Source: a virus. Taken from it: a DNA stretch of 39,697 nucleotides. The notes under the pieces were generated by a model. That model was not told where the DNA came from. It saw only the letters and a list, made by a program, of their open reading frames with translations, and did not search any database. A program made the translations under genes and the position numbers. The stretch spans positions 1-39,697 of the IMG/VR virus record IMGVR_UViG_3300020474_000042; one strand, given 5' to 3'. Of this stretch, positions 24,701 to 39,697 are shown one piece after another (the first letter of the stretch is position 1; every line of letters begins with the position of its first letter).

Positions 24701-27700
24701 AAGTACCAATACCAGCAGATGTAATCTGGAAGGTTTTTGGTTGATTCAGAAGTGCGTCAGCCGCAGATTCTGCAAATGCAACCTTTGCGTCATTGTACTT
24801 AACAATATAACAATCTCTAGGAAGTTTGTCAGTTGTAACACCAGCAACTGATGTTGCCGCAATTCCAATTCTATTGACAGAAGTTCCAAGTCTACCTTCG
24901 TTTCCGTTATAGAGAATACGATCACCAGTTTCGAACTTATGATAAGGAAGAGTGACAGTATTGGTACCAACACCAACAATATCGTCAGAACTTCCATCGA
25001 AGTTTCTAATGAAGATGTCATCTCCATCCGTCTTCATAAGGAATTTGGACTGCTGTTCGAGTTGAGTTGCCTTATACACCTCATTGGTGTTAATAAGTTC
25101 ATGGTAGTTGGAATCCAAAGTATCTGAATAATCATTACCCAAGAATACTTGAATCTCCATACCATATACCCTAACATCTACATCAATATTAGGTTCTGGT
25201 GTAAATGTTAATATAGTATTACTGGTATCTGTATCAATACCAAATGTTCCAATCCCATTTTGTGTACCAGTGATGATACTGGCAAATTCTGTGATATATT
25301 CTCGGGTATTTGTATTCATAACCGAGATTTCAGTAAATTCGTGATTACCATTTGTGGTATCACTAGTTGTCACATAATAGGTTGCGGATTCATATGGATA
25401 TCCATAAGCTGCAATTGAATGTTGTGTTGGTGTTGCAGAAGCAGGAATATTAACATAGTTTGAAAGTAATCTACTAGTTTTCATATTAGTAGATCCAATT
25501 CCAACTTCAGAAGCACTGGTCAAAAGTGAAGTAGATGTAGTTGTGACTGCAATTCCAGGATTGGGTTCAAAAGTAATTTCAACATTACTACCGACAATGT
25601 TTGCATCAAAGGTTCCAATATCAGAACCAAGATAATACTCATTACCAGTACCAGAAAGTGTTGTCAGGTTTCCGTATTCAACAATACTCACATCTGTTCC
25701 ATCATGAATAGTATTCAGTTCAACACCATAAGTAATCTCGTTATCTTGCTCATCTGCACCAATCACCAACACTCTAGATTTTGCTGATCTGTAAGTTGTA
25801 CCATAAGATACAATTGTATCCGATGAACCAGCCCCAATGACTGCATTTTCTGTCTTGAACTCGTTGATAGGTGTAATTGCAATATTATCATTACCAATCA
25901 ATTGAGAGTTGGTGAACATATTGTCCACAACTAGAGACACTTCATAGTTGTTGAATTGTGCATTGGTTGGGAAGAATCTAAATGTCCACCCAAGTTCATT
26001 CTTAACCCACTCAAAATATCCCATTTGGACATTACTGAGCAAATTGGAATATGTATTAGTAAGTGCGTATGAGTTATTGTGAATAAGTGATGTAATGGTA
26101 AATTGTCTTTCCTCGATAAAGGTACTATCTTTCACATAAGCGTACATTCTGTTGAATCTAGCACTTTCATCAAATTGACCAAGATCGATGAAAATATCAT
26201 CTCTGGTATTACTATTGAATGACTTACTGATGTCATCAATGATATAAACTCTATTACTGATAGATTCAAAGTGATCAGTTAGAATTCTATTTTCAAAGTA
26301 GATTTCTCCAGAAAGGTGTGACCCATTCAAGAAAGAGGTTCTTTCAGTAACATAATCAAAATCGAAGAATGTATGAATACTAGATTCACTGATAATTTCA
26401 ACCTTGATGTCAATTTCAGAAGGAGATGTGAGTGGAGTTCTGTCAATATCTGGAGTACTGATAATTTGAAGATCAGAGAATTTCTGAACACCCGCTGGGT
26501 GTACAATAGAACTCACAGCATCATCCCACTGATCAAATGGAATTTCTGAAGCGATTGAATATGAGAAGTTCTGATAATACTCATTATTAGGAAGTTTCTG
26601 GAGGCTATTATTCATGAAACCAGTACTTCTCTCCCAACCACCAACAACGGTAGCACCTGGAGTTGTTGTGATTTCGGAATCATAGTTCTTAACATCAGAA
26701 ACGAAACAAATCGCCCCTGTTGTCTGACCCACTAACTTGTCACCAACCTTGAATCCAAGCCTAGATGAAATTTTAGCAACTTCAATGATAGGATTCCAAC
26801 TCAACACCTTAGCTTTACTTCCACCACCAATGATTGTTTCACCAACTAAAAGGTTACCCTTAGAAATTTGTGGTTTGAAGATCGGCATTGTGGATCTTTG
26901 GATAATCTTACCAACAGAACCGCCAATATCATAATCTCCAGCAACATCAGTATCACTGACATAATCACTCATGTCATAGGTTACAGATGCATTGAAACCA
27001 CCAACATTAGGATCAATAGCAGTAATCTTAAAGTATGCGTAAGTGTGATCTGAAGAGTTGAACCCAAATCCATCAGAACTCAGTGTTGTATTTTCAATAA
27101 AGATCTCATCATTAACCTTGAATGGGAAATCTGAAAGATTCTTAATCGGCTTCCTTAGGAAAGCTTGTGCTTTCTTGGTCGAAGAGTTATATGTGATCGA
27201 ATTGATACCAACACCATTGGAATTGTTGACTGCAACAATTCTTGGCTCAACAGGATACAATCCACTAGTATTTTCTTTGATGTCCACAAAAGGATCACCA
27301 AGTTTATACTTCAGATCAACACCAGGAACAACCTTATTGGTGAATCCGTCAATAACGATAAGATCTGGTGAAATTAAGTAGTTCCTACCTTGAGATGCGA
27401 TGCCAATATAATCAAATGTAGCAAGAGTATCTACTGTGATAACCTCAGGAACATTAGAAACAATTCTCATTGTTTGATCCGTTGGATAATCAAATCCAAT
27501 CTTATTAGCTTTATACTTTGTTTTTAAAATATTACCAATATTGTTACTCTTGGATAGAATAATAGCATCTCTTCCATTTGCACTTCTCACACTAGTGATT
27601 CCGGGCAAACTGAGATAATCGTATCCAGAATTGTTGATATCTACTCCAACAATAGGTCCATTAGCTGTCAGTGACTTTGTTTGATATGTAATTGTAGCGA

Positions 27701-30700
27701 TATTTTGATCCCAATATGATTGGTGAGGAATTTGAGTCAAATTGAAATCAAATGACGTAGATGCAACACCAACAATACTATAAAAACCATTATATTCACT
27801 TTGGATGACACCAATTTGATTATGTGATAAAGCTTCTTCATCAACATAATACTCTCTATAGACATTATCGATCTTATCAAGATTCTGCAACTCAAAGTTA
27901 TACCACAGAGTTTGTGGAATATGATCACTAACATATAATGTCAGTTTTGCATCAGAATCAATACCAGGAAGACCACTGGATGATACTTCAAACTCTCTAG
28001 TTTCTGCAGAGGAAATATATGATTCCAGATATTGATAATCTGAGAATATATTCATCTCAAAAGCACTATATCTAGTGTCATTTCTCATAAAAGAAAGAGA
28101 TGGGTCTGATAAGTCAAACTCCAAGATCTGGTTTCTTCTAATATTGACCAGAGGATTGACTTTAGAGAAAGATCCACTTCCAACTGAGGTCAAATCGACC
28201 ATATTTGGAGATTGTGAGTTAATATCGAACTTGTGCTCTACAAGTTGAATTTTATCCTTATTATAAGGGATAACATAATACATCGAATTGTCAATCAACC
28301 CACCCACAGGACTTTGGGCAAGATATACAACCTTGTCACCCTTGAGGAAATCGTGATTTTCAATTGTGATAGTATTTCTTGTTAAATCTAGTTTAGATGA
28401 ATTAAAACTTGACTGACCAAAGAGAATTCTTCTGTTTGGTACATTGTAAGTGACAGAAATTACTTCTTTAGTTAATGGCTTCAGATTAAAGGTGATATCA
28501 TCACCAATCTTCATTCCATGAGTACTTGCAGTAGATACAGTTGCTAAATTCTTATTGATGTTACCTTTAATGACAGAGGAGAAGTTGGAAAGGAAACTCT
28601 GATAGTCACCATCACCAGAATTGGTGAAGTACATGAGCCCCTTTCCGTCAGCCGAAACATATTCACCAGTATTACCAATACCCATTCTTTGGGTAGAGAT
28701 TCCAATAGTATTTGAAGTTAGTGGAACTGCATAAAACTTATCAAAAGTACTGAGTGGTAGATAAGGTGTTCCTTCTACACCATTCCACATCTGAATGGTT
28801 GTATTTGAATGAGAATTGTAGTATAATTCATCATTAATAATCAGATTATGATTTGGGATGAAGATTGATTGAGGAGTAAGGAATCTAGATGTAGCTCCTA
28901 CACCAGAATCAGAAAGGAATGCAGTATAACCAACACCAACTCCAAGAATTGTACCAACACCAACAGATTCTTCTGGGATGAAGTAATACTCTTCATTAGT
29001 TCTGAGTTTCTTTGTGGTAGTCAATCCAACAATATTGACTCTAAACTTACGAGGATCTTCTCTAAGTACTGTATTGTTTGTATGTGCAGAACCAACAGTA
29101 GAATCCTGTTCTCTTGCAACACGGATCCTGGAAGATCTTCTATCAAGGTTAAGAACCTTAACTCTCTCATCCCCAATAGTGAGAATATCGTTAGGTCTAA
29201 TAAATGGATACTCTAAAGCTCCAGCAACATAGAAGTATGTTGTGAGACCAGTGACCCCAGAATTATTGACACCGAGAGTTAGTACCGTACTATCGGTTCT
29301 GACTCCAACATTATACTGACCATCAAATCCCTTGATATAATCCGAAATGCCATCAATTCTGACACTTTCACCTTGCAACAAGTTTGTTGGAATTGAAGAG
29401 AAACCAATATAAGTGTTGGGTGAATTGTCGGCAACAAATTCTATATTGTCAATGATGAAAGAAGTAGATCTAACATCTATTACTGATTTGCCATCAATTA
29501 TGGAAACTCTTGCTTTAGCGTTTCTTCCACTAGTTCTTTCGTTATTGAATATAAGTTGATCACGAACCTTGTAGTAGTTTCCACCTGTTACAATACCAAC
29601 ACCAGAGATACTTCCTTTTGAAGCTCCAGTAACCTGAAGGCTTTGATCTTGAATACCACTAGAATTTACAATATACTCATATCCAGATCTATCATCATTT
29701 AAGTGATATACATCAGTATTTCTGAACCAACCATTTGATTCAAGATCATACTCTTGCTGATTTGAAGAAGATCTTAAGTTAAATGGATTTGGATTAAACT
29801 TGAAACTGTCACCAATCACATATGGGAATCTTGGTGACTTAAAGTTCTTGAATACACCCTTAGAACTTATCTCTGAAGTGAAAGTAGCGAAGTATGCATA
29901 AGTTCCATTAGGATAGTCTGGTGTTATACAGAACCTACCATTATGCTTATCTAGATCACCTTTATTGGTGAATACATAATCTTCAATGAAGAATGAACCA
30001 GGATACAATGATCTGGAAGGTCTATTCTTAGAACTCTCTTCAATACTGATAAGATTGTATCCACTCTCCATCTGCTTGACTTTTCCATTCTTACCATTGG
30101 CAAAACCATATGGTCCATAGATTGGATTACCATCATATGCCCACCCAATAATAGGTGAGTGCTTATTACTCTCTACTTCTACACCTCTTCTCTTGGTGAG
30201 ATCCTTTTTACCATAGTTTTGTGTTCCATCACCTTCCAAAGAATTTACACTTTCGCGTAACTCTCTTGGTGCATAGAGGTGACAAATCTGAAGTTCTTGG
30301 GCATCAATGGATTGAGAAATGAAGGAATCAGAATCATCAATATTATTGAGTCTTCTGCGATATTCGTTAATGTTCCAGACATTAAGAATAACATCTACAT
30401 TAGAATTTCTACCAGAACTTACGACTTCGATTTCTGTGGTATCATTGGAATACCCAAAACCAGATTGTTCAATGACAACATCAACAATTGTGCCATCACG
30501 AATAATTGGAGACAGTCTTGCAAACTGACCACCACCACGAAGAATAAGATCGGGAGTTGAGTAATACTCATGACCACCACTTATGATCAAAACATCAACA
30601 ATCTTTCCATCCAGAATAAGTGGTTTCAGTTTAGCACCTTCTCCTGACTTAAATGTAACTACAGGTGTTCTGTTGAAGTTGATAATTTCGTCAGATCCAT

Positions 30701-33700
30701 AATTCTCACCACCTTCAGTAATATCTACAGAGTCAATATTACCTCTAAAGATTGGTTGTACTTTACAACTAAAATCTTGACCAGAAAGAGTGGAAACACC
30801 AACCACACCATTAACTGATACTACAATTGGTTGATAGTTAAAGTATCCATTACCTCTTGATTGAATATCAACATAAATGTTTCTCTCATAGTAATAATCA
30901 GTAGCAACACTACCAGTTCCATAAGCAGAAAGTTTAAAGTGGTTGTCGTCTACCTTATGTACATAATAATTGGTATCTTCATCCAGACCAGCAATGTCCA
31001 CTCCACCAGGAATTCTGTAGTGATTAACTATCTCACCAGATTTGTAACCATGATTGACTATATGGATCGTATCAGTACCAATATTGATACCACCCTCGAA
31101 GAATACCTTTCTCTTCTTATTCTGGTAACCACTTCCTGGATTAGTAACAACAACACTGGTTACAATCTTCTTCCTCTCTACCGACTTAATGTCATGAATA
31201 CCCCTACCAACTTCAGTCAGTGAAATTACATTAACATTATCGTTTGCATCATCAAGTGTATTGTGAAGAGTGACCCTATAAGGATCAACAACATTCACAT
31301 GATAAAACGCACCAGTTGTCAGACCAACAATACCCTCTTGGCTATTGGTAGCATATACAACTCTCTCATTGTCTCTAAACTTATGGTAAGTAGAGAAACC
31401 AATAGTATTTGCAGCGAGGTTAATTCCACCAGTTGGTCCAATAGTGGTAGTACTTACACCTGCATTGAAGGAGATAGAATATACAAGATCAGTAGTATTG
31501 ACCTCTGCAGATGCACCCTGTCCAGAACCACCGGTAATGGAAACAAAAGGTCTCTCTACATAATCGAAACCAGTGTCAACAATTCTAATATCTTTCAGTG
31601 AACCAATTATAGCAGCATTTCCAGTTGCACCACTTCCAATAGGAAGATTATCTTCACCAGTATCAAGATCTCGAATATGAAGGTATGGAGGAGAAATAAC
31701 ATCAAACTCAGATCCACCATCTGCTACCGAAATACCTTTAACTTGACCATAATATATCTTATCACCTGATTTGTAGTTGAGAATTTCTACACCATCAAGA
31801 AAAATACCATTATAATTTCCTTGTTCTGTAGGATAGTCACCACTGGTTGTGTCTGGAGCAGCAATTTCCCTTACAATCTTCTGTCCAAGAATATTTTTGT
31901 TCCAATACTTATATTCAGAAATGGTAATATTCTCTACTACTCCTTGTAATAGGAGACAATCACCAAAGAATATATCAGACTTACCTCTGGCAAGTTGAAT
32001 TGTCTGTTGATCGACTCTCTTAACATAGAGAACCATATCACCAAGTCCATCGAACCCATTATACTCTTGAGTTACAATTTGAACACCATCAGGGGTGGTT
32101 GTTATAACATCTTTAGCGCCTCTTTGGTAATATACTGTATCACCAGTGTAAAAACCATGATCTACGTTATCAGTTAGCTTAATATTGTATCCATCAGTAG
32201 CAGCTCCAGAAAAAGTAAACTTTTTGTCGTTTGGATTGATACTTTTATCAAGAAGACTCGGAATTGAGTTCGAAGCTACTAAAGTATCACCATTAAACTT
32301 AGAATAAGTGTTTTGTACGTTTGTTATAAACTCTTTAAGTTTCGGATATTTACGAGTATTGGTTTTTAGTACCTGAGCTTCGACTTTATAAGTGATTCCA
32401 AGAGAAAAATTAGCAATTTTCGACTCAGCTGTCACAACAAATGACTTATCACTGGAAATTCTAGTAATTTTAGCATTTACAACCAAACCTGCATTATTAT
32501 AAACTAAGAGATTGACTCCAGCATAGTAATAATGACTATCAAAAGTCCTAATTTCATAAATTTTCTCATTATCATCAATAACATCAATACCTTCAACATC
32601 TAAAGTACTTTTGATGTTAGTAAACCACCCTCTACTTCTAATATCAGTGGGTTCAATACCCAATGACTTGATATAAATCTCATCATTCTTCTGAATAAGA
32701 GTAGATTTGTCGTTTTCAGTGAATTCATCCAAAGAACAACCAATTCTAACCCTTACAATGTTATCAGTACCCATACCAACGTAAGAGTATGAGTAATCAT
32801 CTTCTAAAACTTCAATATTTTCAGAAATATTACCAACAATACCCTCAACACGAAGGAATTGGTTTACAGATTTATCAAGATAGTTCAATCTGATGGAATT
32901 TCCATCCGTATCAGTCGTGATAAGGTAACCAGTTTGTGCAAATCCGACTGTAGAGTCCACATCAAGGATGGTAGAACCCACACTAACCTGGTTTAGGAGC
33001 CTTGTTTTAGGATTAATCTTGAAATCCGCAAACTTAGTTCCACTAACATCAATATCACGGTCATATCCAAGGTCAATACCTATCTGATAGAACTGACCTT
33101 TGTCATAATTGATTGGTTCAACCTTTGTAATGGTGGCTTTAGCACCAGTAGAGACCTGAAATAAGGTCTGATTGTCCAAATCAAGAGGATTTCCCTCAAG
33201 ACGCTCAACAACCATGTCTTCAGTGACCCTATAATCAGCATCAGAAGGTCTAAAGAGGAACTCAGAAGGTCTAATTACGTCAGATTCCTTGCCATATAAG
33301 GCATTGAAGAGCATCTTAAAGGAAGAATCTGTTCCTTTTGCCTGATAAAATGACTTTAGACCATAAATTAGGTTCCTTCTATCAAGATTTTCATCTAATG
33401 GTCTATTATCAAACCCAGGAGCAAACTGCTTTTTCAGTTTTTTGAAGAATTCTTGAAGAAAAAGTACATTTAGGTTGATAATTTGTACATCAGCCTTATG
33501 TTCTTCCGATTCTGTGGACTGAAAAACGAGTTGTTCTGGGTTATCAAGTGAAATATACGAGCTAATTCCACTAAAACCTCTTACACAACCCTCAAAAGTG
33601 GTGTTAGTTTTGGTTTTATAGTAGATAATTTCATTATCGATCTGAATTAGACCATCATTATCAGGAAATCCGTCAGTAAAGTTACCTTTATATGAAGTTT

Positions 33701-33941
33701 CAATCGTCGTATCAACAAAATCAATATCATATCTAAGCACACTGCTATTGGAGAGATTGAAAATCTCGTCCAATTTCACATATTTGTCAATATTTTGAAC
33801 GATATCGAGTGTTCCGCTCTCAAATTCTTGTGAAACATAATATTGTTTTAGAAATTCTGGTAGCAAAGGGAATTCTTCCCTCACATACCGCGGAAGTTGA
33901 GATTCTACGATATCCTGAAACTTTACTCTATCTACTGACAT
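21726..33941 (-). CDS. 7: Giant gp7-like baseplate wedge protein (4071 aa)
   Basis: This 12.2-kb gene fills almost a third of the window. The N-terminal 250 residues (FQDIVESQLPRYVREEFPLL; later GLKSFYQAKGTDSSFKMLFN and ALYGKESDVIRPSEF, near residues 193-230) match the C-terminal part of T4 gp7 (ESRSYDFYSTKGIEASYKFL). The position between gp6 and gp8 matches as well. T4 gp7 has 1032 residues, so this protein is about four times longer. The rest is mainly beta units: GxGY repeats (NGGSGYSTPPNVVI, NTGLGYTANPTITI, SPGSGYSQDNPPVVL), RG..G..H modules, and a YHYH-type domain at about residues 1262-1376 (GWAYDGNPIYGPYG, then DLDKHNGRFCITPDYPNGTY and FPYVIG). Domain assignment at the N-terminus is strong; the purpose of the extension is unknown. 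Confidence 0.85.
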   Translation of the reverse strand: MSVDRVKFQDIVESQLPRYVREEFPLLPEFLKQYYVSQEFESGTLDIVQNIDKYVKLDEIFNLSNSSVLRYDIDFVDTTIETSYKGNFTDGFPDNDGLIQIDNEIIYYKTKTNTTFEGCVRGFSGISSYISLDNPEQLVFQSTESEEHKADVQIINLNVLFLQEFFKKLKKQFAPGFDNRPLDENLDRRNLIYGLKSFYQAKGTDSSFKMLFNALYGKESDVIRPSEFLFRPSDADYRVTEDMVVERLEGNPLDLDNQTLFQVSTGAKATITKVEPINYDKGQFYQIGIDLGYDRDIDVSGTKFADFKINPKTRLLNQVSVGSTILDVDSTVGFAQTGYLITTDTDGNSIRLNYLDKSVNQFLRVEGIVGNISENIEVLEDDYSYSYVGMGTDNIVRVRIGCSLDEFTENDKSTLIQKNDEIYIKSLGIEPTDIRSRGWFTNIKSTLDVEGIDVIDDNEKIYEIRTFDSHYYYAGVNLLVYNNAGLVVNAKITRISSDKSFVVTAESKIANFSLGITYKVEAQVLKTNTRKYPKLKEFITNVQNTYSKFNGDTLVASNSIPSLLDKSINPNDKKFTFSGAATDGYNIKLTDNVDHGFYTGDTVYYQRGAKDVITTTPDGVQIVTQEYNGFDGLGDMVLYVKRVDQQTIQLARGKSDIFFGDCLLLQGVVENITISEYKYWNKNILGQKIVREIAAPDTTSGDYPTEQGNYNGIFLDGVEILNYKSGDKIYYGQVKGISVADGGSEFDVISPPYLHIRDLDTGEDNLPIGSGATGNAAIIGSLKDIRIVDTGFDYVERPFVSITGGSGQGASAEVNTTDLVYSISFNAGVSTTTIGPTGGINLAANTIGFSTYHKFRDNERVVYATNSQEGIVGLTTGAFYHVNVVDPYRVTLHNTLDDANDNVNVISLTEVGRGIHDIKSVERKKIVTSVVVTNPGSGYQNKKRKVFFEGGINIGTDTIHIVNHGYKSGEIVNHYRIPGGVDIAGLDEDTNYYVHKVDDNHFKLSAYGTGSVATDYYYERNIYVDIQSRGNGYFNYQPIVVSVNGVVGVSTLSGQDFSCKVQPIFRGNIDSVDITEGGENYGSDEIINFNRTPVVTFKSGEGAKLKPLILDGKIVDVLIISGGHEYYSTPDLILRGGGQFARLSPIIRDGTIVDVVIEQSGFGYSNDTTEIEVVSSGRNSNVDVILNVWNINEYRRRLNNIDDSDSFISQSIDAQELQICHLYAPRELRESVNSLEGDGTQNYGKKDLTKRRGVEVESNKHSPIIGWAYDGNPIYGPYGFANGKNGKVKQMESGYNLISIEESSKNRPSRSLYPGSFFIEDYVFTNKGDLDKHNGRFCITPDYPNGTYAYFATFTSEISSKGVFKNFKSPRFPYVIGDSFKFNPNPFNLRSSSNQQEYDLESNGWFRNTDVYHLNDDRSGYEYIVNSSGIQDQSLQVTGASKGSISGVGIVTGGNYYKVRDQLIFNNERTSGRNAKARVSIIDGKSVIDVRSTSFIIDNIEFVADNSPNTYIGFSSIPTNLLQGESVRIDGISDYIKGFDGQYNVGVRTDSTVLTLGVNNSGVTGLTTYFYVAGALEYPFIRPNDILTIGDERVKVLNLDRRSSRIRVAREQDSTVGSAHTNNTVLREDPRKFRVNIVGLTTTKKLRTNEEYYFIPEESVGVGTILGVGVGYTAFLSDSGVGATSRFLTPQSIFIPNHNLIINDELYYNSHSNTTIQMWNGVEGTPYLPLSTFDKFYAVPLTSNTIGISTQRMGIGNTGEYVSADGKGLMYFTNSGDGDYQSFLSNFSSVIKGNINKNLATVSTASTHGMKIGDDITFNLKPLTKEVISVTYNVPNRRILFGQSSFNSSKLDLTRNTITIENHDFLKGDKVVYLAQSPVGGLIDNSMYYVIPYNKDKIQLVEHKFDINSQSPNMVDLTSVGSGSFSKVNPLVNIRRNQILEFDLSDPSLSFMRNDTRYSAFEMNIFSDYQYLESYISSAETREFEVSSSGLPGIDSDAKLTLYVSDHIPQTLWYNFELQNLDKIDNVYREYYVDEEALSHNQIGVIQSEYNGFYSIVGVASTSFDFNLTQIPHQSYWDQNIATITYQTKSLTANGPIVGVDINNSGYDYLSLPGITSVRSANGRDAIILSKSNNIGNILKTKYKANKIGFDYPTDQTMRIVSNVPEVITVDTLATFDYIGIASQGRNYLISPDLIVIDGFTNKVVPGVDLKYKLGDPFVDIKENTSGLYPVEPRIVAVNNSNGVGINSITYNSSTKKAQAFLRKPIKNLSDFPFKVNDEIFIENTTLSSDGFGFNSSDHTYAYFKITAIDPNVGGFNASVTYDMSDYVSDTDVAGDYDIGGSVGKIIQRSTMPIFKPQISKGNLLVGETIIGGGSKAKVLSWNPIIEVAKISSRLGFKVGDKLVGQTTGAICFVSDVKNYDSEITTTPGATVVGGWERSTGFMNNSLQKLPNNEYYQNFSYSIASEIPFDQWDDAVSSIVHPAGVQKFSDLQIISTPDIDRTPLTSPSEIDIKVEIISESSIHTFFDFDYVTERTSFLNGSHLSGEIYFENRILTDHFESISNRVYIIDDISKSFNSNTRDDIFIDLGQFDESARFNRMYAYVKDSTFIEERQFTITSLIHNNSYALTNTYSNLLSNVQMGYFEWVKNELGWTFRFFPTNAQFNNYEVSLVVDNMFTNSQLIGNDNIAITPINEFKTENAVIGAGSSDTIVSYGTTYRSAKSRVLVIGADEQDNEITYGVELNTIHDGTDVSIVEYGNLTTLSGTGNEYYLGSDIGTFDANIVGSNVEITFEPNPGIAVTTTSTSLLTSASEVGIGSTNMKTSRLLSNYVNIPASATPTQHSIAAYGYPYESATYYVTTSDTTNGNHEFTEISVMNTNTREYITEFASIITGTQNGIGTFGIDTDTSNTILTFTPEPNIDVDVRVYGMEIQVFLGNDYSDTLDSNYHELINTNEVYKATQLEQQSKFLMKTDGDDIFIRNFDGSSDDIVGVGTNTVTLPYHKFETGDRILYNGNEGRLGTSVNRIGIAATSVAGVTTDKLPRDCYIVKYNDAKVAFAESAADALLNQPKTFQITSAGIGTFHQIKSQKTEERTMILIDNMIQSPLADTDISTVNTVTVATQTEIRVAGITSFFSDDIVRIDDEYMLVIATWFEPNDGNYYMKVVRGMMGSRLATHNINSSVVKVTGQYNIVENSINFIQSPKGSIPLSTTTDPDEFDWTGITTHSSFQGRVFNRTSFQGLGISTENYALNHVYDDISNNFTGIRSDFVLKYEGDSVTGISTDNAVVLVNGIFQHPDGVSRNGKDEFPSYSLSESLNETNIRFLADPYNGQNNTQSYPRGGILMEVGSRPGFGYQPLVSAGGTAIVSGGAVTSVSIGNSGSGYRSGLQTVRVGVQTYSNGIPNTHYVGTATITDGNVTGIAITNGGSGYSTPPNVVIDAPLPYSNVPLIYNSSSLGNAGTGAKVDIVVGNGSSVINFELTDKGTGYGDRQQLTVAIGGTVGIPTTGSDFSEFIVDVGRTQRDTFNSWFLGEIQVLDDISDEFDGKTKTFNLKLGGEGVAIIARKGSQIVVENTLLIFINGVLQDPTRSYGMQGGSVIRFNEAPKAGEKGEVFFYKGTRDKDVVFKDILETVKEGDILNVNNNPLRGQSIGLSQNDRPVTGINTVDSVTTTPYIRPGVTTDTTLTRPVSWSKQLSDVVVDGVFVGKDRMHYEPNIFPFSYLIQSIGVTTSVVYVDSVKPLFDSLNETSDEKYQNKIQIISQDVNETGIVTAIVGPTGSIVDMDIVNTGLGYTANPTITISTPLNGQKAVVGSITQNNRIVGFDIVSPGSGYSQDNPPVVLVEPPRYPIEIVDVSDYSGDYGIIVGFGTNTVGDKTQLIFDFHIPFDSWMRDQDLVSDDTTISGISTGDFFTVFDSNGSHSSGTVVTKEIDNTTRIGVSTDSLDNIYQVDHVTTVSKNVIGVGVTDVRRVFTNIVGQPIGGVSFDNNSETLDSTAYSMDTQEYVVYSGTVASSQILGRYSWGKIDIKGRPDAQSFNFYGGNGYAGLTTSTYVRRHNDLKFRGYDIIPYDDTPRV

Positions 33942-33947
33942 TTCTTA

Positions 33948-35960
33948 TTAGTACGATGACGAAGTAGTGTTATTAGTATTTACCACACTTCTTAAACCTC
34001 TATTTGAGACGGTATTTCTTACAACTGGTGTATCTTCAGAAGTATTAATAACGGGTGTTCCTCTAACAAAAGAGGTTTTTCCATGACTAGAAGATACAAT
34101 GTAATTACTACCAGAAACATCATTACCAGAAGAAATACGATCTGATACCATATTGATATTTGTATTATTCATATCTAATTGAAGATACAAATCTTGAAGA
34201 CCAATCACATCATTAGAGAAAGGTGTTGCTGAAATCTGAATAACATCAACAATTCCATTCTTAGTTGAAGTTGAAATCACATTAATAGGATTAAGCCTAA
34301 CTTCTCCTTTTACATAATCAACATATCCAATATTTTGTTTTATGATAACTGGTTCTGATGGAGATCTCAATTTAAATAACATAACATAACCCCTACTCAT
34401 ATCACCATAAGGAACATCACCAAGATAAACAGTATCACTAATACCAGATACTCTAAATCCAGAAGAACGAATATTATATCCAGAACTCTTTACATAGAAT
34501 CTATTACCAAAACATATCTCATATTCTGCAAAAGTATTAAGAGTAGGAACCATATCTCTTCTAATTGAGATATTAGTAATATTTGATGTAATGGATTCAT
34601 TACTATCATCAATAATTCTCAAATACTTACTATACTTAAATCTTGCACCAAACTTATTCAATTGTGTAGAGTTTGCATATGAATTAATATTAGCTCTTAC
34701 AATACTAGAAACATAATCAGGTGAAGGTGCCAGATTGGTATTATAATATACATCCGAATCTGCTTCCAGATACAAATACTTCAAATCTACAATCTCAGGT
34801 ATAATACCTGTAACAGAGTATTTCTTAAGTTCGTTCTTTATATTTGTTTTGATTGTTGTAGAAAGATATTCACCATGTTGTGGTTTAACACTGATAAACA
34901 CTTTACCAAATGCTGGTGGATTCAAATCCTCACCACCATATGCAGATACTGATTGAGTTTCTGCATAGATTCTAGGAATCAATGATTCATAATCATTAGA
35001 AGTTACTGCCCGATTCTGTGCAGCGTAAATCAGAGGTGCATACTTCTTAATAGAAGATACACTCTCAATTTCTGCACCACCATAAGATGGTGTTGATGTT
35101 GTGATGAATGATACACCACCTGTAATAACCTTTCCGTTATTATCTACTAATCTTCCAGAGTATTCAAATTTCTCAATATTGTCACCATCAGCTCCATCTG
35201 TGATAATATATGATGCTTTGATAAAATTGGGTTCTTGTAGTTTAACACCAAACTTACCATCACCAAATAAAAGTTCATATCTTTCTGACTCCGCTTCTTG
35301 TAGGAAGAATACTGCAGAACTACCATCAACACCAAAAAGGCTATTGAATTGTGAAAACTTTCTAGAAACTGATGATTGCTCAGAGTTGAATACAGAAACA
35401 TTCAACAAATCCGTATCAATACCAACGTTGGGTAGAATGAATCTTTGATTTGGATTTCTTGATGAAACTGTGAAAGTTTGTTCTATAAAGGTTCCTTGGT
35501 AGATACTAATATCGATAAATCTAGCTTCACCAGAATCATTAATAGGAACAGTGATATCTGATGGAATACAGAAGGTATAAGATTTTCTAGAAAATTTCTT
35601 TGAGGTAATTGCAACAATACCAGCCTTAAGTGTCAGTGTTGATGCGACAAGTCCAGTAGCATTAACAACAAAGGATACTTTAGCTACCGATGCGGTCTTA
35701 GATCTAGGAACATAACCAATATTACGTGCTAGAGAAACAACATTCTCTCGAAGAGTAGCACTATCAATAAACACCTCATTCGTCACCATGTTGGTGTTGT
35801 ATGAAGTAATATAAGTGTTATATGCTAACGTATCGATAATTGTTGATAAGTTAGAACCTTCAAAATCATAATCCGTGAAATTTGAATTAACACGGAGATA
35901 ATCTTTGATAGATTCCTTTATCTGGTCAAAATCGACATTTGAAAAATTAACTAAAGGCAT
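33948..35960 (-). CDS. 6: Baseplate wedge protein gp6 (670 aa)
   Basis: gp6 forms the inner ring of the baseplate wedges. Residues about 30-83 (DYDFEGSNLSTIIDTLAYNT, then NMVTNEVFIDSATLRENVVS and ARNIGYVP) are the conserved signature of gp6-family (gpJ-like) wedge proteins. Length is close to T4 gp6 (660). The protein ends in a Ser/Asn-rich tail (NTNNTTSSSY). The ATG directly abuts the gp25 stop codon (TAA-ATG) and the gp7-like gene starts seven bases after its own stop, so gp25, gp6 and gp7 form one coupled wedge operon. Confidence 0.95.
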   Translation of the reverse strand: MPLVNFSNVDFDQIKESIKDYLRVNSNFTDYDFEGSNLSTIIDTLAYNTYITSYNTNMVTNEVFIDSATLRENVVSLARNIGYVPRSKTASVAKVSFVVNATGLVASTLTLKAGIVAITSKKFSRKSYTFCIPSDITVPINDSGEARFIDISIYQGTFIEQTFTVSSRNPNQRFILPNVGIDTDLLNVSVFNSEQSSVSRKFSQFNSLFGVDGSSAVFFLQEAESERYELLFGDGKFGVKLQEPNFIKASYIITDGADGDNIEKFEYSGRLVDNNGKVITGGVSFITTSTPSYGGAEIESVSSIKKYAPLIYAAQNRAVTSNDYESLIPRIYAETQSVSAYGGEDLNPPAFGKVFISVKPQHGEYLSTTIKTNIKNELKKYSVTGIIPEIVDLKYLYLEADSDVYYNTNLAPSPDYVSSIVRANINSYANSTQLNKFGARFKYSKYLRIIDDSNESITSNITNISIRRDMVPTLNTFAEYEICFGNRFYVKSSGYNIRSSGFRVSGISDTVYLGDVPYGDMSRGYVMLFKLRSPSEPVIIKQNIGYVDYVKGEVRLNPINVISTSTKNGIVDVIQISATPFSNDVIGLQDLYLQLDMNNTNINMVSDRISSGNDVSGSNYIVSSSHGKTSFVRGTPVINTSEDTPVVRNTVSNRGLRSVVNTNNTTSSSY

Positions 35961-36359
35961 TTACCTAGTGGGTTCTAAAACGAACGTAAGTTCTTGTACT
36001 TCTGATGTGCCAACAATTTCATACTTAATCCGACAATTGAATTCATTGTTGTCGTAATCTGGAGTAACTACAACCTCAAGAAGTTTAACTCTAGGTTCAA
36101 AGGATCTAATTGTATAATCAATTTCACCTTTAATCTGAGTAGCAGTAATCTGATCTAAACTTTCAAATAATAATTCAGATACCCTACTACCAATAGATGG
36201 TTGAAAGGGTTTTTCACCAGGAACAGTGAAGATTAGATTACGAAGTGAACGAGCAATGGCATTCTCATTCTTCAGTGCAATCAGATCATCATTCATTGGA
36301 TTGATCTGAAAAGTTGCACTAATATCTTTGAAGCCTTTGCTTATTCTTTCAATTGGCAC
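35961..36359 (-). CDS. 25: Baseplate wedge protein gp25 (132 aa)
   Basis: This is the gpW/gp25-family wedge component that contacts the sheath-proximal baseplate. MPIERISKGFKDISATFQ, then NENAIARSLRNLIFTVPGEK, FQPSIGSRVSELLFE and the closing YEIVGTSEVQELTFVLEPTR are typical of the family, and the length equals T4 gp25 (132). The start codon is GTG at 36359, supported by the conserved MPIERI beginning. An AGGAG lies about 20 bases upstream, which is too far to be a standard ribosome site. A CTAAATA late-promoter-like site lies 27 bases before the start. It is the first gene of the baseplate operon. Confidence 0.95.
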   Translation of the reverse strand: MPIERISKGFKDISATFQINPMNDDLIALKNENAIARSLRNLIFTVPGEKPFQPSIGSRVSELLFESLDQITATQIKGEIDYTIRSFEPRVKLLEVVVTPDYDNNEFNCRIKYEIVGTSEVQELTFVLEPTR

Positions 36360-36385
36360 TTATTTGTAATACAAGAATACTCCTA

Positions 36386-36392
36386 TATTTAG
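36386..36392 (-). promoter_or_regulatory. Probable late promoter for the baseplate operon (CTAAATA)
   Basis: CTAAATA (octamer CCTAAATA) on the minus strand in the gap before gp25, 27 bases upstream of its GTG start. Confidence 0.5.
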
Positions 36393-36396
36393 GTAG

Positions 36397-36558
36397 TTAA
36401 TCCTCAATAAGTGTTACTGGTTGAGAGCCACAAGTACACTGATGATTAGGGTCAGAACAATCAGTTGTTTCAAAAAGTCCATCTGTGTTAACTTTCCTCA
36501 TTTGTCTGGGAGTTTCTTTGTCATTTGCAATTTCTCTCAAGAATTCATGTTCACCCAT
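36397..36558 (-). CDS. Small Cys-containing protein, unknown function (53 aa)
   Basis: The start at 36558 (MGEHEFLREIANDKETPRQM) has the best ribosome site in this neighbourhood, AGGAG seven bases upstream. A longer reading frame in the same phase would reach back through a terminator and an unrelated gene, so it is rejected. The C-terminal half has DCSDPNHQCTCG, a cluster of three Cys and one His that could bind a metal, although it is too short to assign to a zinc-finger type. It lies between a terminator and gp25. Function unknown. Confidence 0.65.
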   Translation of the reverse strand: MGEHEFLREIANDKETPRQMRKVNTDGLFETTDCSDPNHQCTCGSQPVTLIED

Positions 36559-36590
36559 CTTCTTTCTCCTTTTATTATATCTATAAGCAT

Positions 36591-36616
36591 TAAAAAAGAC
36601 CCTATCTCTAGGGTCT
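36591..36616 (-). terminator. Rho-independent terminator after the 48-aa basic protein
   Basis: On the minus strand a 7-bp stem (AGACCCT / AGGGTCT) closes a 6-base loop and is followed by a run of T residues. It begins seven bases after the stop at 36623 and ends the accessory segment before the structural block. Confidence 0.85.
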
Positions 36617-36622
36617 CTTAGA

Positions 36623-36769
36623 TTAACGTCCTTGTCCGCGATAACGTTTTGGTTTGTTGTTTCGAGAACTGGCTGCATACTTAGTATGTTTACCAGTACC
36701 TTGTCGTGTCTTCTTTGGTGTAGCCTCAATAAAGGAATCACCCATCAATGAACGCTTAAACTTTGCCAT
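36623..36769 (-). CDS. Small basic protein, cyanophage-type (48 aa)
   Basis: The protein begins MAKFKRSLMGDSFIEATPKK and ends NNKPKRYRGQGR. It is highly basic (Lys and Arg make up about a quarter), with no hydrophobic core, so it may be disordered or bind nucleic acid. I recall very similar short proteins from T4-like cyanophages, but none with known function. The stop at 36623 is followed at once by a strong terminator, which supports it being a real gene. A weak TATAAT element lies about 25-30 bases upstream. It is short enough to be missed by length-filtered gene finding. Confidence 0.75.
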   Translation of the reverse strand: MAKFKRSLMGDSFIEATPKKTRQGTGKHTKYAASSRNNKPKRYRGQGR

Positions 36770-36806
36770 TAGTGTAATGTATCTACTTTGTTATTATAAG
36801 GGGGTT

Positions 36807-36828
36807 AGAGGGGATTCTATACCCCTCT
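36807..36828 (-). other. GC-rich hairpin between the glycosyltransferase and the 48-aa gene
   Basis: A 7-bp perfect stem (AGAGGGG / CCCCTCT) with an 8-base loop lies 12 bases after the glycosyltransferase stop. No T-run follows on the minus strand, so it is a weak terminator at best. It may instead protect the 3' end or be a processing site. Confidence 0.6.
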
Positions 36829-36839
36829 GTGACAGTTTA

Positions 36840-37655
36840 TCAAATGATCCTGGTCTTCTCATGACCAACACGAATACGAGGATCACACCAGATATCAATA
36901 CCAGCTTCAATAGCATCCAAACAGAAGGATACATCTTCACCACACATGTCTTGAACTGCTCCTGATTCAAATACTTGCATCTTAGGAGCGAACCATGGAT
37001 ACTTCATCTCAGGGTGTTCAAACACACCCTTCTTAATCATCACCCAACCGAAACCAGTATAGTCAACAGTAAAGGGCTTCTTACGCTTGGTGATACCATC
37101 AACCATCTCATGATTCATCACACCACCATTATTACGGAAGTCATCTTCTTCCAACCAGTGTGCAACTGATGTAGTACGACCATCTTCTGTAGAGTACCAA
37201 CCAGCAGAGATAGGATGATCCTTACCTTCAATCGTATTACCATCACCATCAACTGCATCAGCAGGTAGTGCTAGATCACACAATTGCCAGAACTTCTCAG
37301 AAGTAAAGACAATATCACTATCAATCCACAACTGATAATCATACTGCAACTTACCATCCCATGGAATCTGATCAGGTCCACGAAGAACATTAGCACCAAG
37401 ACACTTACAGCGTGCAAAGTTTACCATTGAACTATAATCTTGACTGATCTGAATGGCCATACCATTCTGAACCAAATCAAAACAAAGTTGTACAAAGTTC
37501 TTTAAGTAAGTATATGAAACACCTCTTCCTGGAAGACAGAATACAATTGTCTTCCCACGCATTCTTGCCTTAATTGCATCATAGTCCCACTCTTGATCAG
37601 TAGTATTTGATGATGTCTTTGGCTTTGAAGCTTTTACTGTAAATCCTTTTGCCAT
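36840..37655 (-). CDS. Putative GT-A-fold glycosyltransferase (271 aa)
   Basis: The order of motifs suits a GT-A glycosyltransferase using a nucleotide sugar. An N-terminal strand-loop (TIVFCLPGRGVSYTYLKNF) is followed by a metal-binding DxD in LWIDSDIVF (D112 and D114), an acceptor-side GFGWVMIKKGVF (about 201-212), and GEDVSFCLDAIEAGIDIWCD (239-258) with a closing His (HEK, 265). Substrate is unknown; phage relatives could modify virion proteins, phage DNA bases or host surface glycans. I chose the ATG at 37655 (MAKGFTVKASK) over an upstream in-frame GTG at 37679, because the extra residues look unnatural. A CTAAATA site lies 41 bases upstream and a terminator separates it from the gene before. 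Confidence 0.75.
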   Translation of the reverse strand: MAKGFTVKASKPKTSSNTTDQEWDYDAIKARMRGKTIVFCLPGRGVSYTYLKNFVQLCFDLVQNGMAIQISQDYSSMVNFARCKCLGANVLRGPDQIPWDGKLQYDYQLWIDSDIVFTSEKFWQLCDLALPADAVDGDGNTIEGKDHPISAGWYSTEDGRTTSVAHWLEEDDFRNNGGVMNHEMVDGITKRKKPFTVDYTGFGWVMIKKGVFEHPEMKYPWFAPKMQVFESGAVQDMCGEDVSFCLDAIEAGIDIWCDPRIRVGHEKTRII

Positions 37656-37695
37656 TGTAATAGAGTCACTCCATTTCACTCATTATTATACTGGA

Positions 37696-37702
37696 TATTT
37701 AG
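37696..37702 (-). promoter_or_regulatory. Possible late promoter before the glycosyltransferase (CTAAATA)
   Basis: CTAAATA (octamer ACTAAATA) on the minus strand directly after a terminator and 41 bases before the glycosyltransferase ATG. The spacing is longer than for the other sites. Confidence 0.45.
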
Positions 37703-37719
37703 TTGTAAGTCAACCGCAG

Positions 37720-37745
37720 AAAAAAAGAGAGCCTTTCAGCTCTCT
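37720..37745 (-). terminator. Rho-independent terminator overlapping a stop codon
   Basis: On the minus strand a 7-bp stem (AGAGAGC / GCTCTCT) with a 6-base loop is followed by T residues. The TGA stop of the upstream small gene (37736-37738) sits in the loop, so the last codons of that gene form one arm of the stem. Confidence 0.85.
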
Positions 37746-37927
37746 AACTTAATTAAACCATATTCACTCATCACTTCACGAAAGATCTCTTTGAGTTCTT
37801 CTCGTTCCTCAGGTGTGAATACAGTTCTAATCTTAACTGGAAAGGGTCCAGGATCCTCTCCAGTAGATCTCTTGGTGAATGAGAGTCCATCACCACTCCC
37901 ACTCATGTTCTGAGTACTCATTCCCAT
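37736..37927 (-). CDS. Small hypothetical protein (63 aa)
   Basis: The N-terminal third is Gly- and Ser-rich (MSTQNMSGSGDGLSFTKRS) and the C-terminal half is a charged amphipathic helix (TPEEREELKEIFREVMSEYG). No domain is recognised. The first ATG (37927) immediately follows the stop of the gene before (TAA-ATG), with GGAGG 11 bases upstream. A second in-frame ATG two codons later is equally possible. The end of the gene doubles as a terminator stem. Likely transcribed with the methylase unit; function unknown. Confidence 0.6.
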   Translation of the reverse strand: MGMSTQNMSGSGDGLSFTKRSTGEDPGPFPVKIRTVFTPEEREELKEIFREVMSEYGLIKLES

Positions 37928-38092
37928 TTAATAACTTACCTCCTCTAATATTTTAGGTTCGTCACATACTTCATACTGACACTTAACACCTTCCATAAAA
38001 TAATGTTCCCACAAACCATTAAATGAATCTTCATTTAAATTATGATGCAAACACTTACCCTCTGAATAAATGTGAAACACTTTGTTAGTCAT
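37928..38092 (-). CDS. Small hypothetical protein after the methylase (54 aa)
   Basis: It begins MTNKVFHIYSEGKCLHHNLN and has a pattern (short beta hairpin, then a helix with Trp and Tyr) like small proteins I know from T4-like cyanophages. It contains three Cys and several His. The ATG at 38092 has a strong GGAGG four bases upstream, which decides the start over an in-frame ATG at 38113 that would overlap the methylase. Spaced 13 bases after the methylase stop, so part of the same transcript. Function unknown. Confidence 0.65.
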   Translation of the reverse strand: MTNKVFHIYSEGKCLHHNLNEDSFNGLWEHYFMEGVKCQYEVCDEPKILEEVSY

Positions 38093-38105
38093 AGAACCTC
38101 CAAAA

Positions 38106-39014
38106 TTATACATTATCTAGTAGTTCAGAAAGAATATTATTTTCTTCCTGATCCCTAGGAAGTTGATAATTCATAATCAACAACTCCTCCTTCTTATTCT
38201 TATTCTCCTTACGATGAGCTAAACTATAGCGAAACTCAAACGTCTCCATATGATAATCAGCAAACTGCTCACGTAACCATGGGTGCTCATTATAAGTAAT
38301 CATCCAGTTATGTGGACTACCCTTACATGATTCAACAAAGTCCTCATGCACAAAACCCGTATGCATCTCTTTGTTCTTACCATAAAGCATGTCCTTAATG
38401 AGATAAGGTGGATCCAAAAAGACAAATACATCCTCACCAGGAGCCGTCATTAAGTCCCTATAGTCCCCATTAGTAATCCTCCAGGGTTGGATTATATTAC
38501 TAATTTCTGGGAGTTTTTTTATTTTAGTTTGATTAAAAATAGTGTTCTTATAAGCATCACGAATAAACGCATTCTTATTCTGTTCTGTAAATCCTCCAAA
38601 GGATGTCCTGTTCAAAATATAAAAGGCTGTCGCAAGATCGTGTGGATCTGTAGAAGTCTCGATTAAACTCCTCATGTCTGCATACAATGCTCTGTGTTTC
38701 GCCTCTAACTCAGTAACATCAGTAGCTACACATGCCTTATCTTTTAATTCTAAAATACGATTTGTGAGACTATCTGAATTACTCTGTAATTGTGTCCAGA
38801 AACAATACAGATTATAATACAAGTCATTCACCCATACAGGAGTCCCTGGATACATCGTAGAGAATGTGAGTGCACAACTCCCACCTCCTAAGAACCCTTC
38901 CCGATACTCCTTGATCTGTGAAGGTATCATGTTCTGTCTGAAAAGATAGTAAATGATACGTGACTTCCCTCCTGGATATCGGAGACAATTTGGATACTTT
39001 CTTCTTTCTTTCAT
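38106..39014 (-). CDS. dam: D12-class DNA adenine N6-methyltransferase (Dam-like, 302 aa)
   Basis: Transfers a methyl group from S-adenosylmethionine to adenine in DNA. LRYPGGKSR (PGGKS at 14-18) and FLGGGSCALTF (41 onward) form the cofactor-binding motifs. The catalytic DPPY is at 201-204 in VFVFLDPPYLIKD. WVNDLYYNLYCFW and AFYILNRTSFGGF are further family features, in the order of the Dam / MethyltransfD12 group. Start set at the ATG 39014; an in-frame GTG at 39035 would add seven residues. A perfect sigma-70 promoter about 230 bases upstream reads into it. The target sequence is likely GATC by family, but this cannot be proved here. Phage Dam enzymes typically protect against host restriction or act on expression. 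Confidence 0.9.
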   Translation of the reverse strand: MKERRKYPNCLRYPGGKSRIIYYLFRQNMIPSQIKEYREGFLGGGSCALTFSTMYPGTPVWVNDLYYNLYCFWTQLQSNSDSLTNRILELKDKACVATDVTELEAKHRALYADMRSLIETSTDPHDLATAFYILNRTSFGGFTEQNKNAFIRDAYKNTIFNQTKIKKLPEISNIIQPWRITNGDYRDLMTAPGEDVFVFLDPPYLIKDMLYGKNKEMHTGFVHEDFVESCKGSPHNWMITYNEHPWLREQFADYHMETFEFRYSLAHRKENKNKKEELLIMNYQLPRDQEENNILSELLDNV

Positions 39015-39244
39015 CGGGGGTTCTCTCTGATACACTTGGAGACTTTCTTATTATAACCTATGGGGGGCCTTGTGCCTAGTGGGAATTTTTCTGAGGGGCT
39101 TCGGCATAGTTGGTAAAAAAAAATTGGGGAAGTTTTTTTAAACCGAAAGAAGACTTTTATAGCTTAGATAGAAGGTACTTTTTATATTCGGGGGTAGGCT
39201 TCTTATACCTTCCTTATGGCTACGCGATCATAACATAATAACGA

Positions 39245-39273
39245 ATTATACCATATAACTGTCATTTTGTCAA
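39245..39273 (-). promoter_or_regulatory. Perfect-consensus sigma-70 promoter driving dam
   Basis: On the minus strand TTGACA (39273-39268) and TATAAT (39250-39245) are separated by exactly 17 bases, matching the full bacterial housekeeping consensus. Transcription would start near 39238 and read toward dam. Such a promoter needs no phage factor, so it should fire early using host RNA polymerase. Confidence 0.88.
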
Positions 39274-39351
39274 GCCACTGTGTGATACTTAATGAAGTGT
39301 CCTATGTGTTACTTAGTGGTGTGACTATGTTATAACAAGGCACAAAAATGA

Positions 39352-39392
39352 CCAGAGGTTATGATCAGGACACCACTCCTAATCGCCTCTGG
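39352..39392 (-). terminator. Possible terminator hairpin after the right-edge gene
   Basis: On the minus strand an outer stem CCAGAGG / CCTCTGG encloses an inner AGGA / TCCT stem with a 6-base loop. TCATTTTT follows, a weak T-run. It lies about 90 bases past the stop of the right-edge gene. It could equally be a structured leader or sRNA element. Confidence 0.45.
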
Positions 39393-39484
39393 CCAATGTT
39401 AACCACTATTGGACGATAAGACACAAGAACCACCAAGTATCTTATCAGATCTGAGTTTAACGACCTCACCCATGGTCGTAATAC

Positions 39485-39697
39485 TTAGTGTGTTATATCT
39501 GCCTTCAATAGTTTATCACATCTGTCTGCTTCTGTTAATACATCATCATCCAACTCATCCCATTCAACATACTCATAAGCCCCTCTATTGGTCTCATAAG
39601 TGCCATCACTGTATAGGGGGTGATACATTAGAATAGTGTTGTGATTACCATCCAGTGTGTATGTACAACCGTTGACTTGAGAGATGATGAAGACCAT
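39485..39697 (-). CDS. Small acidic hypothetical protein at the window edge (70 aa visible)
   Basis: The visible frame runs from an ATG at the last base of the window to a TAA at 39485. It reads MVFIISQVNGCTYTLDGNHN at the start and has an acidic C-terminal part (EYVEWDELDDDVLTEADRCD). The ATG may be the true start, but an upstream start cannot be excluded. There is no recognised domain. It lies upstream of the sigma-70 promoter and is separated from dam, so it probably belongs to another transcript. Confidence 0.6.
   Translation of the reverse strand: MVFIISQVNGCTYTLDGNHNTILMYHPLYSDGTYETNRGAYEYVEWDELDDDVLTEADRCDKLLKADITH

Follow-up and report, generated by a model that had tools for sequence, protein, structure and literature searches.

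The region upstream of dam in this phage fragment is best read as a locus in which transcription from an early promoter of the host sigma70 type crosses a junction site acting at the DNA level and enters a dam cassette that has been inserted there, a reading to which we give a probability of about 0.6. The window (the whole stretch of DNA analyzed) is a 39,697-base IMG/VR virus fragment of a T4-like marine cyanophage, and the phage is known from this fragment alone. We propose that the locus forms a compound boundary between early and late genes, into which a dam cassette has entered. Transcription of the upstream genes would end at a structured RNA with a terminator. The host-sigma70 promoter would then restart early transcription, with a start expected near 39238, and the transcript would cross a site with the core CTAASCTAYAA, continue through dam and two small ORFs, and stop near 37726. 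The leader would hold no attenuator; its conserved part would act as a DNA recognition site, usually single, that heads the gp25-side block.

T4-like cyanophages are very common in the sea and, to our knowledge, both the division between their early and late genes and the position at which their DNA is cut are poorly understood. The junction site offers a convenient entry to those questions: it has matches in 321 phage records, two of its bases change only in concert across 102 copies, and it predicts a dedicated reader with two specificities. The locus also provides a covarying structured RNA for which Rfam gave no match.

Gene Map of the Window

Near DNA matches to positions 36000–39697 occur in 34 phage records, every one of which is a Synechococcus phage. 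On the minus strand, the gene order from the right end of the window is the 70-aa ORF, the promoter and leader region, dam, two small ORFs, a 279-aa gene, a 114-aa ORF, gp25, and a gp6-like gene, the last named from gene order as in S-PM2 and Syn19 (Table 1). The dam product is predicted to be a D12-class adenine methyltransferase by its score against Pfam PF02086 (4e-25, 89.3 bits against a cutoff of 22, in the longer frame to 39035) together with the DPPY motif. Directly downstream of the gp6-like gene, a 4071-aa ORF runs without interruption (21726–33941, minus strand). A tRNA scan of the window found none.

Table 1. Features of the dam locus and its surroundings in the window
Feature	Coordinates	Strand	Basis
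70-aa ORF, function unassigned (phrog_13788), truncated by window end, precedes junction	39485–39697	−	PHROG match
Structured RNA, about 140 nt, with three hairpins; a T run comes after the third hairpin, which has two stacked stems, as in an intrinsic terminator	39345–39484	−	fold, covariation, covariance model
−35 hexamer TTGACA, distal early promoter	39268–39273	−	exact consensus
−10 hexamer TATAAT, spacer 17, TGG directly before (39253–39251)	39245–39250	−	exact consensus and conserved position in relatives
Inverted repeat GAAGGTA (39171–39177)/TACCTTC (39206–39212), plus-strand letters, one arm within junction element	39171–39212	−	judged to be chance
Conserved noncoding junction element AAAAGTACCTTCTATCTAAGCTATAA; core CTAAGCTATAA at 39167–39157 (G..T class)	39157–39182	−	BLAST and pattern searches
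Proximal promoter TAGGCA-17-TATAAT (10/12), about 35 nt before dam ATG	39050–39078	−	counterpart 12/12 in L175, L176, L177, L179
dam, predicted D12-class adenine-N6 DNA methyltransferase, 302 aa, DPPY motif	38106–39014	−	PF02086, phrog_56, motif
61-aa ORF (phrog_2626)	37928–38113	−	PHROG match
63-aa ORF (phrog_1286)	37736–37927	−	PHROG match
Terminator-like hairpin, 8-bp stem and T run, possible end of dam unit	37726–37745	−	hairpin scan
Second near-consensus host-type promoter TTGACT-17-TATAAT, before 279-aa gene	37685–37713	−	promoter scan
279-aa gene, ATG start reads MAKGFTVK	36840–37679	−	
Late block start: baseplate wedge genes gp25 (35961–36359) and gp6-like (33948–35960)	33948–36359	−	domain/PHROG matches

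Distal Promoter and Upstream RNA

The preliminary description of this DNA had reported an exact TTGACA-17-TATAAT promoter, and it is indeed present on the minus strand, with 12 of 12 positions matching and an additional TGG before the −10 hexamer. It is the sole site without mismatches in the window, for which a first-order Markov model of the window (spacer 16–18, both strands) predicts 0.077 exact sites, or 0.01 with the TGn motif. Weaker promoter-like sites occur at the level of shuffled sequence (28 versus 25.5 in shuffles of 33900–39697), and therefore exactness alone makes the distal promoter stand out. Calling it rare was an overstatement. S-PM2, Syn19, S-WAM1, and P-RSM6 carry 3, 6, 3, and 4 perfect sites, respectively (whole genomes were scanned in 20-kb pieces, and sites spanning piece borders would be missed), so that one site in 39.7 kb is about average. 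The accompanying statement that nearby genes use late-type sites fails near dam, since the six exact NATAAATA boxes on the minus strand all lie at or below 18489. It is conservation that lifts the distal promoter above chance.

Conservation was assessed among loci that share the RNA located upstream of the promoter. This RNA contains a conserved single-stranded UAAACUCAGA and an apical GGAGUGGUGUCC. Its fold z-score is −4.6 in the window (minus strand, 39495–39340), compared with −3.9 in the relative L177 and −3.0 in L180. Between the window and L180, 36 pairs show 12 two-sided changes with 93% of the cells paired, and none of 500 shuffles scored as high, with the window's own fold being used and somewhat favored by this; the pair counts exclude a MAFFT alignment with L177 out of register and an alignment holding chance and wrong-strand matches. 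A covariance model built from the window and L180 finds L177 at 6e-13 and eleven more loci, which have a shorter form of the RNA, at 3e-8 to 7e-7. The eleven came from 17 contigs picked by the pattern GTGAGGNCNNTAAACTCAGA; the others comprise the L180 and L177 contigs and four that lack the RNA (one with a chance-level match). A looser pattern combining a promoter with AAGTACC was too permissive, and its loci entered only the nhmmer pool. We conclude that the upstream RNA is a covarying structured RNA with a terminator. It occurs in 14 loci: the window, L177 (808–945), L180 (25–165), L399, L401, L402, L405–L410, L412, and L413. The junction core lies 130–371 nt downstream of it in 13 of these, the contig of L399 ending before that point. 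The RNA was seen solely in uncultivated contigs: blastn gave no homologue among isolated phages, and the covariance model gave no further copy in the four whole genomes or the other loci searched.

After two identical loci were dropped, 12 RNA-bearing loci remained, several of them nearly the same. A host-type promoter with 10–12 of 12 matches stands between the RNA and the core in 11 of the 12, the best scores being 12, 12, 9, 11, 10, 11, 11, 11, 10, 11, 11, and 11. At least 11 matches are thus reached in 9 loci; in shuffles, 11 matches occur in 0.4% and 10 in 3.8%. The core was located in 11 loci; it lies 77–109 nt from the −10 hexamer in 10 of them, the exception being L177 with 63 nt. L177 is also the exception in score: its best site between RNA and core has 9 of 12 matches, and the aligned site has decayed to TAAGCA-17-TAAAAT. 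This decay in a close relative counts against our explanation. Outside the RNA-bearing group, the promoter is not general: across the 122 loci that provide 150 nt ahead of the junction site, the best promoter score averages 7.7, versus 7.4 in shuffles. A 12/12 promoter was found upstream of the site in four of the 122 (the window, Syn19, WH25-B, and S-SSM4) and in none of 2440 shuffles. Within the RNA-bearing group, a host-type promoter at the same place is conserved, and the promoter could serve the whole accessory segment, as had been suggested earlier.

A second terminator-then-promoter pair, formed by the hairpin at 37745–37726 and the promoter at 37713–37685, stands ahead of the 279-aa gene. 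The accessory unit may end at this hairpin, with the near-consensus promoter following next. Terminator-like sites near the dam unit number 3 versus 2.2 in shuffles, and the hairpin call is weak.

Two further observations concern the surroundings of the distal promoter. A GATC is located just past the expected transcription start in the window (39226–39229) and in L180 (281–284), and none was seen there in L177. Should Dam methylate GATC, its own promoter might be influenced. In addition, three imperfect 13-nt direct repeats resembling GTGATACTTAATG occur at 39282–39294, 39306–39318, and 39478–39490. Two are just upstream of the distal promoter and one precedes the RNA; they are possible regulator sites.

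Leader and Proximal dam Promoter

From the expected start to the dam ATG (39014), the leader measures about 224 nt. It had been described as a long structured leader with an inverted repeat, of which the length and the repeat are borne out and the structure is not. The minimum free energy of the leader is −34.6, compared with −32.7 ± 4.1 in shuffles (z = −0.47), and 57 of 200 shuffles are as stable. The arms of the repeat are 7 nt long and separated by 28 nt; the 224 nt contain six inverted pairs with arms of 7 nt or more, this one included. No GAAGGTA arm was seen in the leaders of L176, L177, L180, or S-CAM7; one arm of the repeat falls in the conserved site, and it is the other that does not recur in the relatives. 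An Rfam scan of 37500–39697 returned no family at or near the gathering score. The leaders of close relatives are alike in little beyond the two promoter regions, the core, and the dam start, which leaves too little alignable sequence for a covariation count. A tRNA-Met gene (anticodon CAT) replaces much of the leader in three of them. It immediately precedes dam's own promoter in L176, L177, and L179, and is downstream of the core where the contig reaches: in L176 and L177 it lies between the core and dam, and in L179 it lies just before dam, where the contig begins. A search for leader conservation in related phages, proposed in the preliminary description, therefore gives a divided answer: there is no conserved structure, and there is conserved sequence, though it is not specific to dam.

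The proposal that a long structured leader attenuates or regulates dam draws on the leader's length, which may be compared with the median intergenic gap of 6 bp given for S-PM2d in the relevant part of PMC5931967. The same part describes a hairpin in the psbA 5′ UTR, proposed to take part in psbA regulation. However, the fold of the leader is at chance level, the repeat arm was not seen in the relatives' leaders examined, relatives replace much of the leader, and a promoter close to dam is present in 11 of 28 relatives. We regard such regulation as very unlikely indeed. A riboswitch or attenuator was likewise rejected, given the shuffle-level fold, the lack of an Rfam family, and the divergent relatives. 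On the whole, the preliminary description was right about the promoter and wrong about the structure.

A near-consensus promoter (11–12 matches) is found within 120 nt of dam in 11 of 28 relatives with at least 80 nt upstream, several of which are near-duplicates and some of which have approximate start positions; in shuffles, such promoters occur in 0.4%. Its distance from the aligned dam start is 72–73 nt in L175, L176, L177, and L179, and 50 nt in the seven others. The remaining 17 relatives score 8–10. The promoter-bearing relatives (L175–L177, L179, L181–L184, L188, L189, and L202) include loci in which the 26-nt junction element was not seen. In the window, the distal promoter is perfect and the proximal one weakened; in L177 the situation is reversed. 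We take this to indicate promoter turnover in which dam stays under host-type control. In L406, L407, L412, and L413, the gene with the MAKGFTVK start, which is also the start of the 279-aa gene of the window, lacks a dam-sized ORF ahead of it. Since dam has its own promoter in 11 of 28 relatives and a dam-sized ORF is missing from these four loci, dam is likely to be an inserted cassette.

Sequence, Occurrence, and Place of the Junction Site

The conserved part of the leader was recognized by BLAST as a 41–44-nt near-identity to S-CAM7 spanning 39153–39196. Weaker BLAST matches were obtained with P-RSM6, S-WAM1, S-SZBM1, Sf-FR1, and a single-cell virus. No annotated gene covers the matched copies, apart from those of one S-CAM7 genome and the RefSeq version of it. 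A 66-nt query from Syn19 matches 321 phage records (E up to 10), all of them cyanophages or marine viruses and three of them at two places; many of the items counted in this set, and in the sets of 12, 28, and 122, are near-duplicates of one another. Among 16 named records, 13 have exactly one match with up to 3 mismatches, and the other three have none but carry more diverged copies. The pattern AAAAGTACCKTCTNTCTAASCTAYAA has exact matches in 114 IMG/VR contigs; each of the 100 examined contains a single one. Because the pattern was drawn from nine phage and window copies, the conservation over 26 nt is partly a product of selection. The closest dam relatives, L176, L177, and L180, keep the 11-nt core without the 26-nt element, which was not found within 4 substitutions anywhere in L175–L275. 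That close relatives keep only the core is a second point against our explanation. No description of the junction site turned up in the literature searched; we do not claim that it is absent from print.

The place of the site is also conserved. It is upstream of gp25 or gp25–gp6 in S-PM2, Syn19, S-CAM1, ACG-2014f, and Sf-FR1, and in annotated examples it separates variable early genes or small ORFs from the gp25–gp6 block. Among 100 of the 114 IMG/VR contigs, the nearer contig end is upstream of the site in 85, and ends within 2 kb number 57 upstream versus 3 downstream. The 57 upstream ends are spread over 0.03–2 kb without a sharp peak, and this broad excess is probably due to a variable island.

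Several other assignments were considered. A coding function does not agree with the variable positions 9, 13, 19, and 23, whose spacings of 4, 6, and 4 nt show no codon periodicity. GC skew was uninformative about a replication origin: the cumulative skew in four genomes follows the gene strand and has no extreme at the site. The upstream ORF (39485–39697) does not mark the junction well: relatives of this ORF occur at 22 loci, and in the downstream sequence covered, 3 kb or less, the core was present at 2 and a perfect promoter at 1. With the core in just 2 of the 22, the ORF is not tied to the junction site. Nine-nucleotide words of the core elsewhere in the four genomes are few and scattered, with no cluster, Syn19 having five of its class including the site.

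Linked Bases and Candidate Functions of the Junction Site

Two bases of the site are linked. In 102 distinct copies, positions 19 and 23 read C..C in 57 and G..T in 45, with no mixed copies. The search pattern allowed all four base combinations at these positions, and the linkage is therefore not a selection effect. Position 9 reassorts freely with the two classes. On a tree of the flanking sequences (94 copies; a quick tree with long branches), the class switches 14 times, at least 10 of them on well-supported branches. No cis partner for the two classes was found among nearby words, and reverse-complement words are not class-specific; other class-associated 6-mers resemble lineage signals. 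Taken together, the linked positions, the repeated switching, and the absence of a cis partner point to a trans-acting reader, which the sequences suggest for this site. Alternatively, recombination exchanging short stretches could produce the linkage.

We considered three functions for the site. They are rivals of one another within the preferred explanation, and their likelihoods are not exclusive of it. The first is an RNA-level element, in which the core would be read in the transcript through processing, antitermination, or pairing with a small RNA. A host-type promoter upstream of the site in the window, Syn19, WH25-B, S-SSM4, and the RNA-bearing relatives would place the core in mRNA. 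That the window site would itself be transcribed counts against a purely DNA-level explanation and leaves room for an RNA role. However, such a promoter was not seen in most of the 122 relatives, and no cis pairing partner tracks the two classes. A terminator-like hairpin was found within 110 nt upstream of the site in 35 of 94 copies, compared with 3.7 in letter shuffles. Because these hairpins are combined with promoter scores at shuffle level in the 122 relatives, many copies seem to lie between transcription units, which argues for a function in DNA rather than RNA. We consider an RNA-level role improbable.

The second possibility is that the site is the upstream activator element (−55 to −30) of one special T4-type late promoter serving the gp25-side block. 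The late box NATAAATA is found at a fixed offset of +42, which is 17 nt past the core, in 45 of the 102 copies, where the background is 0.017 per 54 nt, and within 4 nt of this offset in 5 more. The coding-strand bias of NATAAATA in the four genomes (52:7, 34:2, 41:5, and 38:3) is as expected of late promoters, and a section of PMC5931967 reports sigma70 and Gp55 motifs together at cyanomyovirus psbA. Conversely, of the 165 NATAAATA sites on the coding strand of the four genomes, a single one, in S-PM2, has the full core, and the other three genomes have the site without an exact NATAAATA at that spacing. An exact late box is missing from 52 of the 102 copies, including those of the window and S-CAM7, and also from Syn19, with the core intact. 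At the usual spacing, a good late box is missing from the window copy. We consider this function less likely than not, though nearly as likely as the DNA-processing function described next.

The third possibility is that the site marks a DNA cut or packaging start (pac-like) or another DNA-processing site. The G..T and C..C classes would then match two specificities of a reader such as the small terminase. In favor are the usual single copy per genome, the trans-acting reader suggested by the linked bases, and the positions at which some records end. The records of RN05-S, S-SZBM1, and S-E7 end 54, 55, and 111 nt upstream of the core, respectively, and those of WH25-B (479 nt) and S-M1 (about 570 nt) also begin nearby. 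Two public "complete genome" records, MH920640.1 (S-E7; L431/L432) and PV261924.1 (RN05-S; L433/L434), have end overlaps of 127 and 77 nt that span the core. However, 127 and 77 resemble assembler k-mers, and the breaks may be assembly artifacts or variants of the neighboring island. Given these k-mer-like overlaps, the two records are probably untrimmed circular assemblies opened at the junction site. True DNA ends would be one cause of such an opening and local variants another. The end cases came from unevenly drawn lists, and an even draw of 60 rows contained one such case (RN05-S). The IMG/VR contig ends, 57 of 100 at 0.03–2 kb upstream, form no sharp peak, and T4 itself is not known to have a single pac.

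PMC4503421 reports a 2–3-fold rise in read density in S-PM2 "immediately downstream of the ORFanage", which its authors read as terminal redundancy. The S-PM2 deletion ends at 15,339; the junction site, at 25,140, is 9.8 kb beyond, and a match between the depth rise and the site is suggestive only. The termini analysis of S-SZBM1, as excerpted from PMC9146016, gave circularly permuted DNA and named no fixed end, although headful packaging from a pac site would be permuted too. The 111-nt distance in S-E7 and the permuted S-SZBM1 DNA (PMC9146016, same excerpt) weigh this function down, and we hold it tentatively, as slightly the likelier of the two leading functions but still less likely than not. 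A fuller version, in which the site would be the packaging-start or DNA-end signal of T4-like cyanophages, single-copy, served by a phage reader with two specificities, and located beside a gene-exchange island because cutting and recombination there swap islands, is unlikely in its entirety.

Comparison with Known Systems

By its hexamers, spacing, orientation on the strand of dam, and conservation, the distal promoter would be classed as sigma70-type. The host-sigma70 early promoters of T4-like cyanophages share TTGACA-17-TATAAT with it; in the four genomes, every one of the 16 perfect sites has the coding-strand orientation. The hexamers are alike, whereas the TGG before the −10 hexamer and the downstream junction site are particular to this locus and its relatives.

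The T4 late promoter is TATAAATA, recognized with gp55. The junction site resembles it in having a NATAAATA box close past the core in 50 of 102 copies, 45 of them at one offset. In contrast to ordinary late promoters, the core is an added upstream sequence, missing from 164 of the 165 late boxes in the four genomes, and the window copy has no clear box. TATAAAT is taken as the late motif in cyanophages in a portion of PMC3037559.

Like the pac sites of headful phages, the junction site is usually present in one copy and lies beside the ends of some isolates' records. Unlike them, it is on the gp25 side and is not known to adjoin a terminase gene.

PeSL are promoter-early stem-loop cassettes of T4-type phages (see also PMC4503421), in which a terminator stem-loop stands beside an early promoter between modules in a variable region. 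The window has two PeSL-like pairs: a stem-loop ending at 39345 followed by the −35 hexamer at 39273, and the hairpin at 37745–37726 followed by the promoter at 37713. By its sequence features, the first pair has the arrangement of a PeSL cassette, with a putative early promoter next to a terminator stem-loop where two modules meet; the fragment leaves out most of the early island, in which repeats of such a cassette between modules would lie. It differs in that the stem-loop ending at 39345 is part of a larger, covarying RNA.
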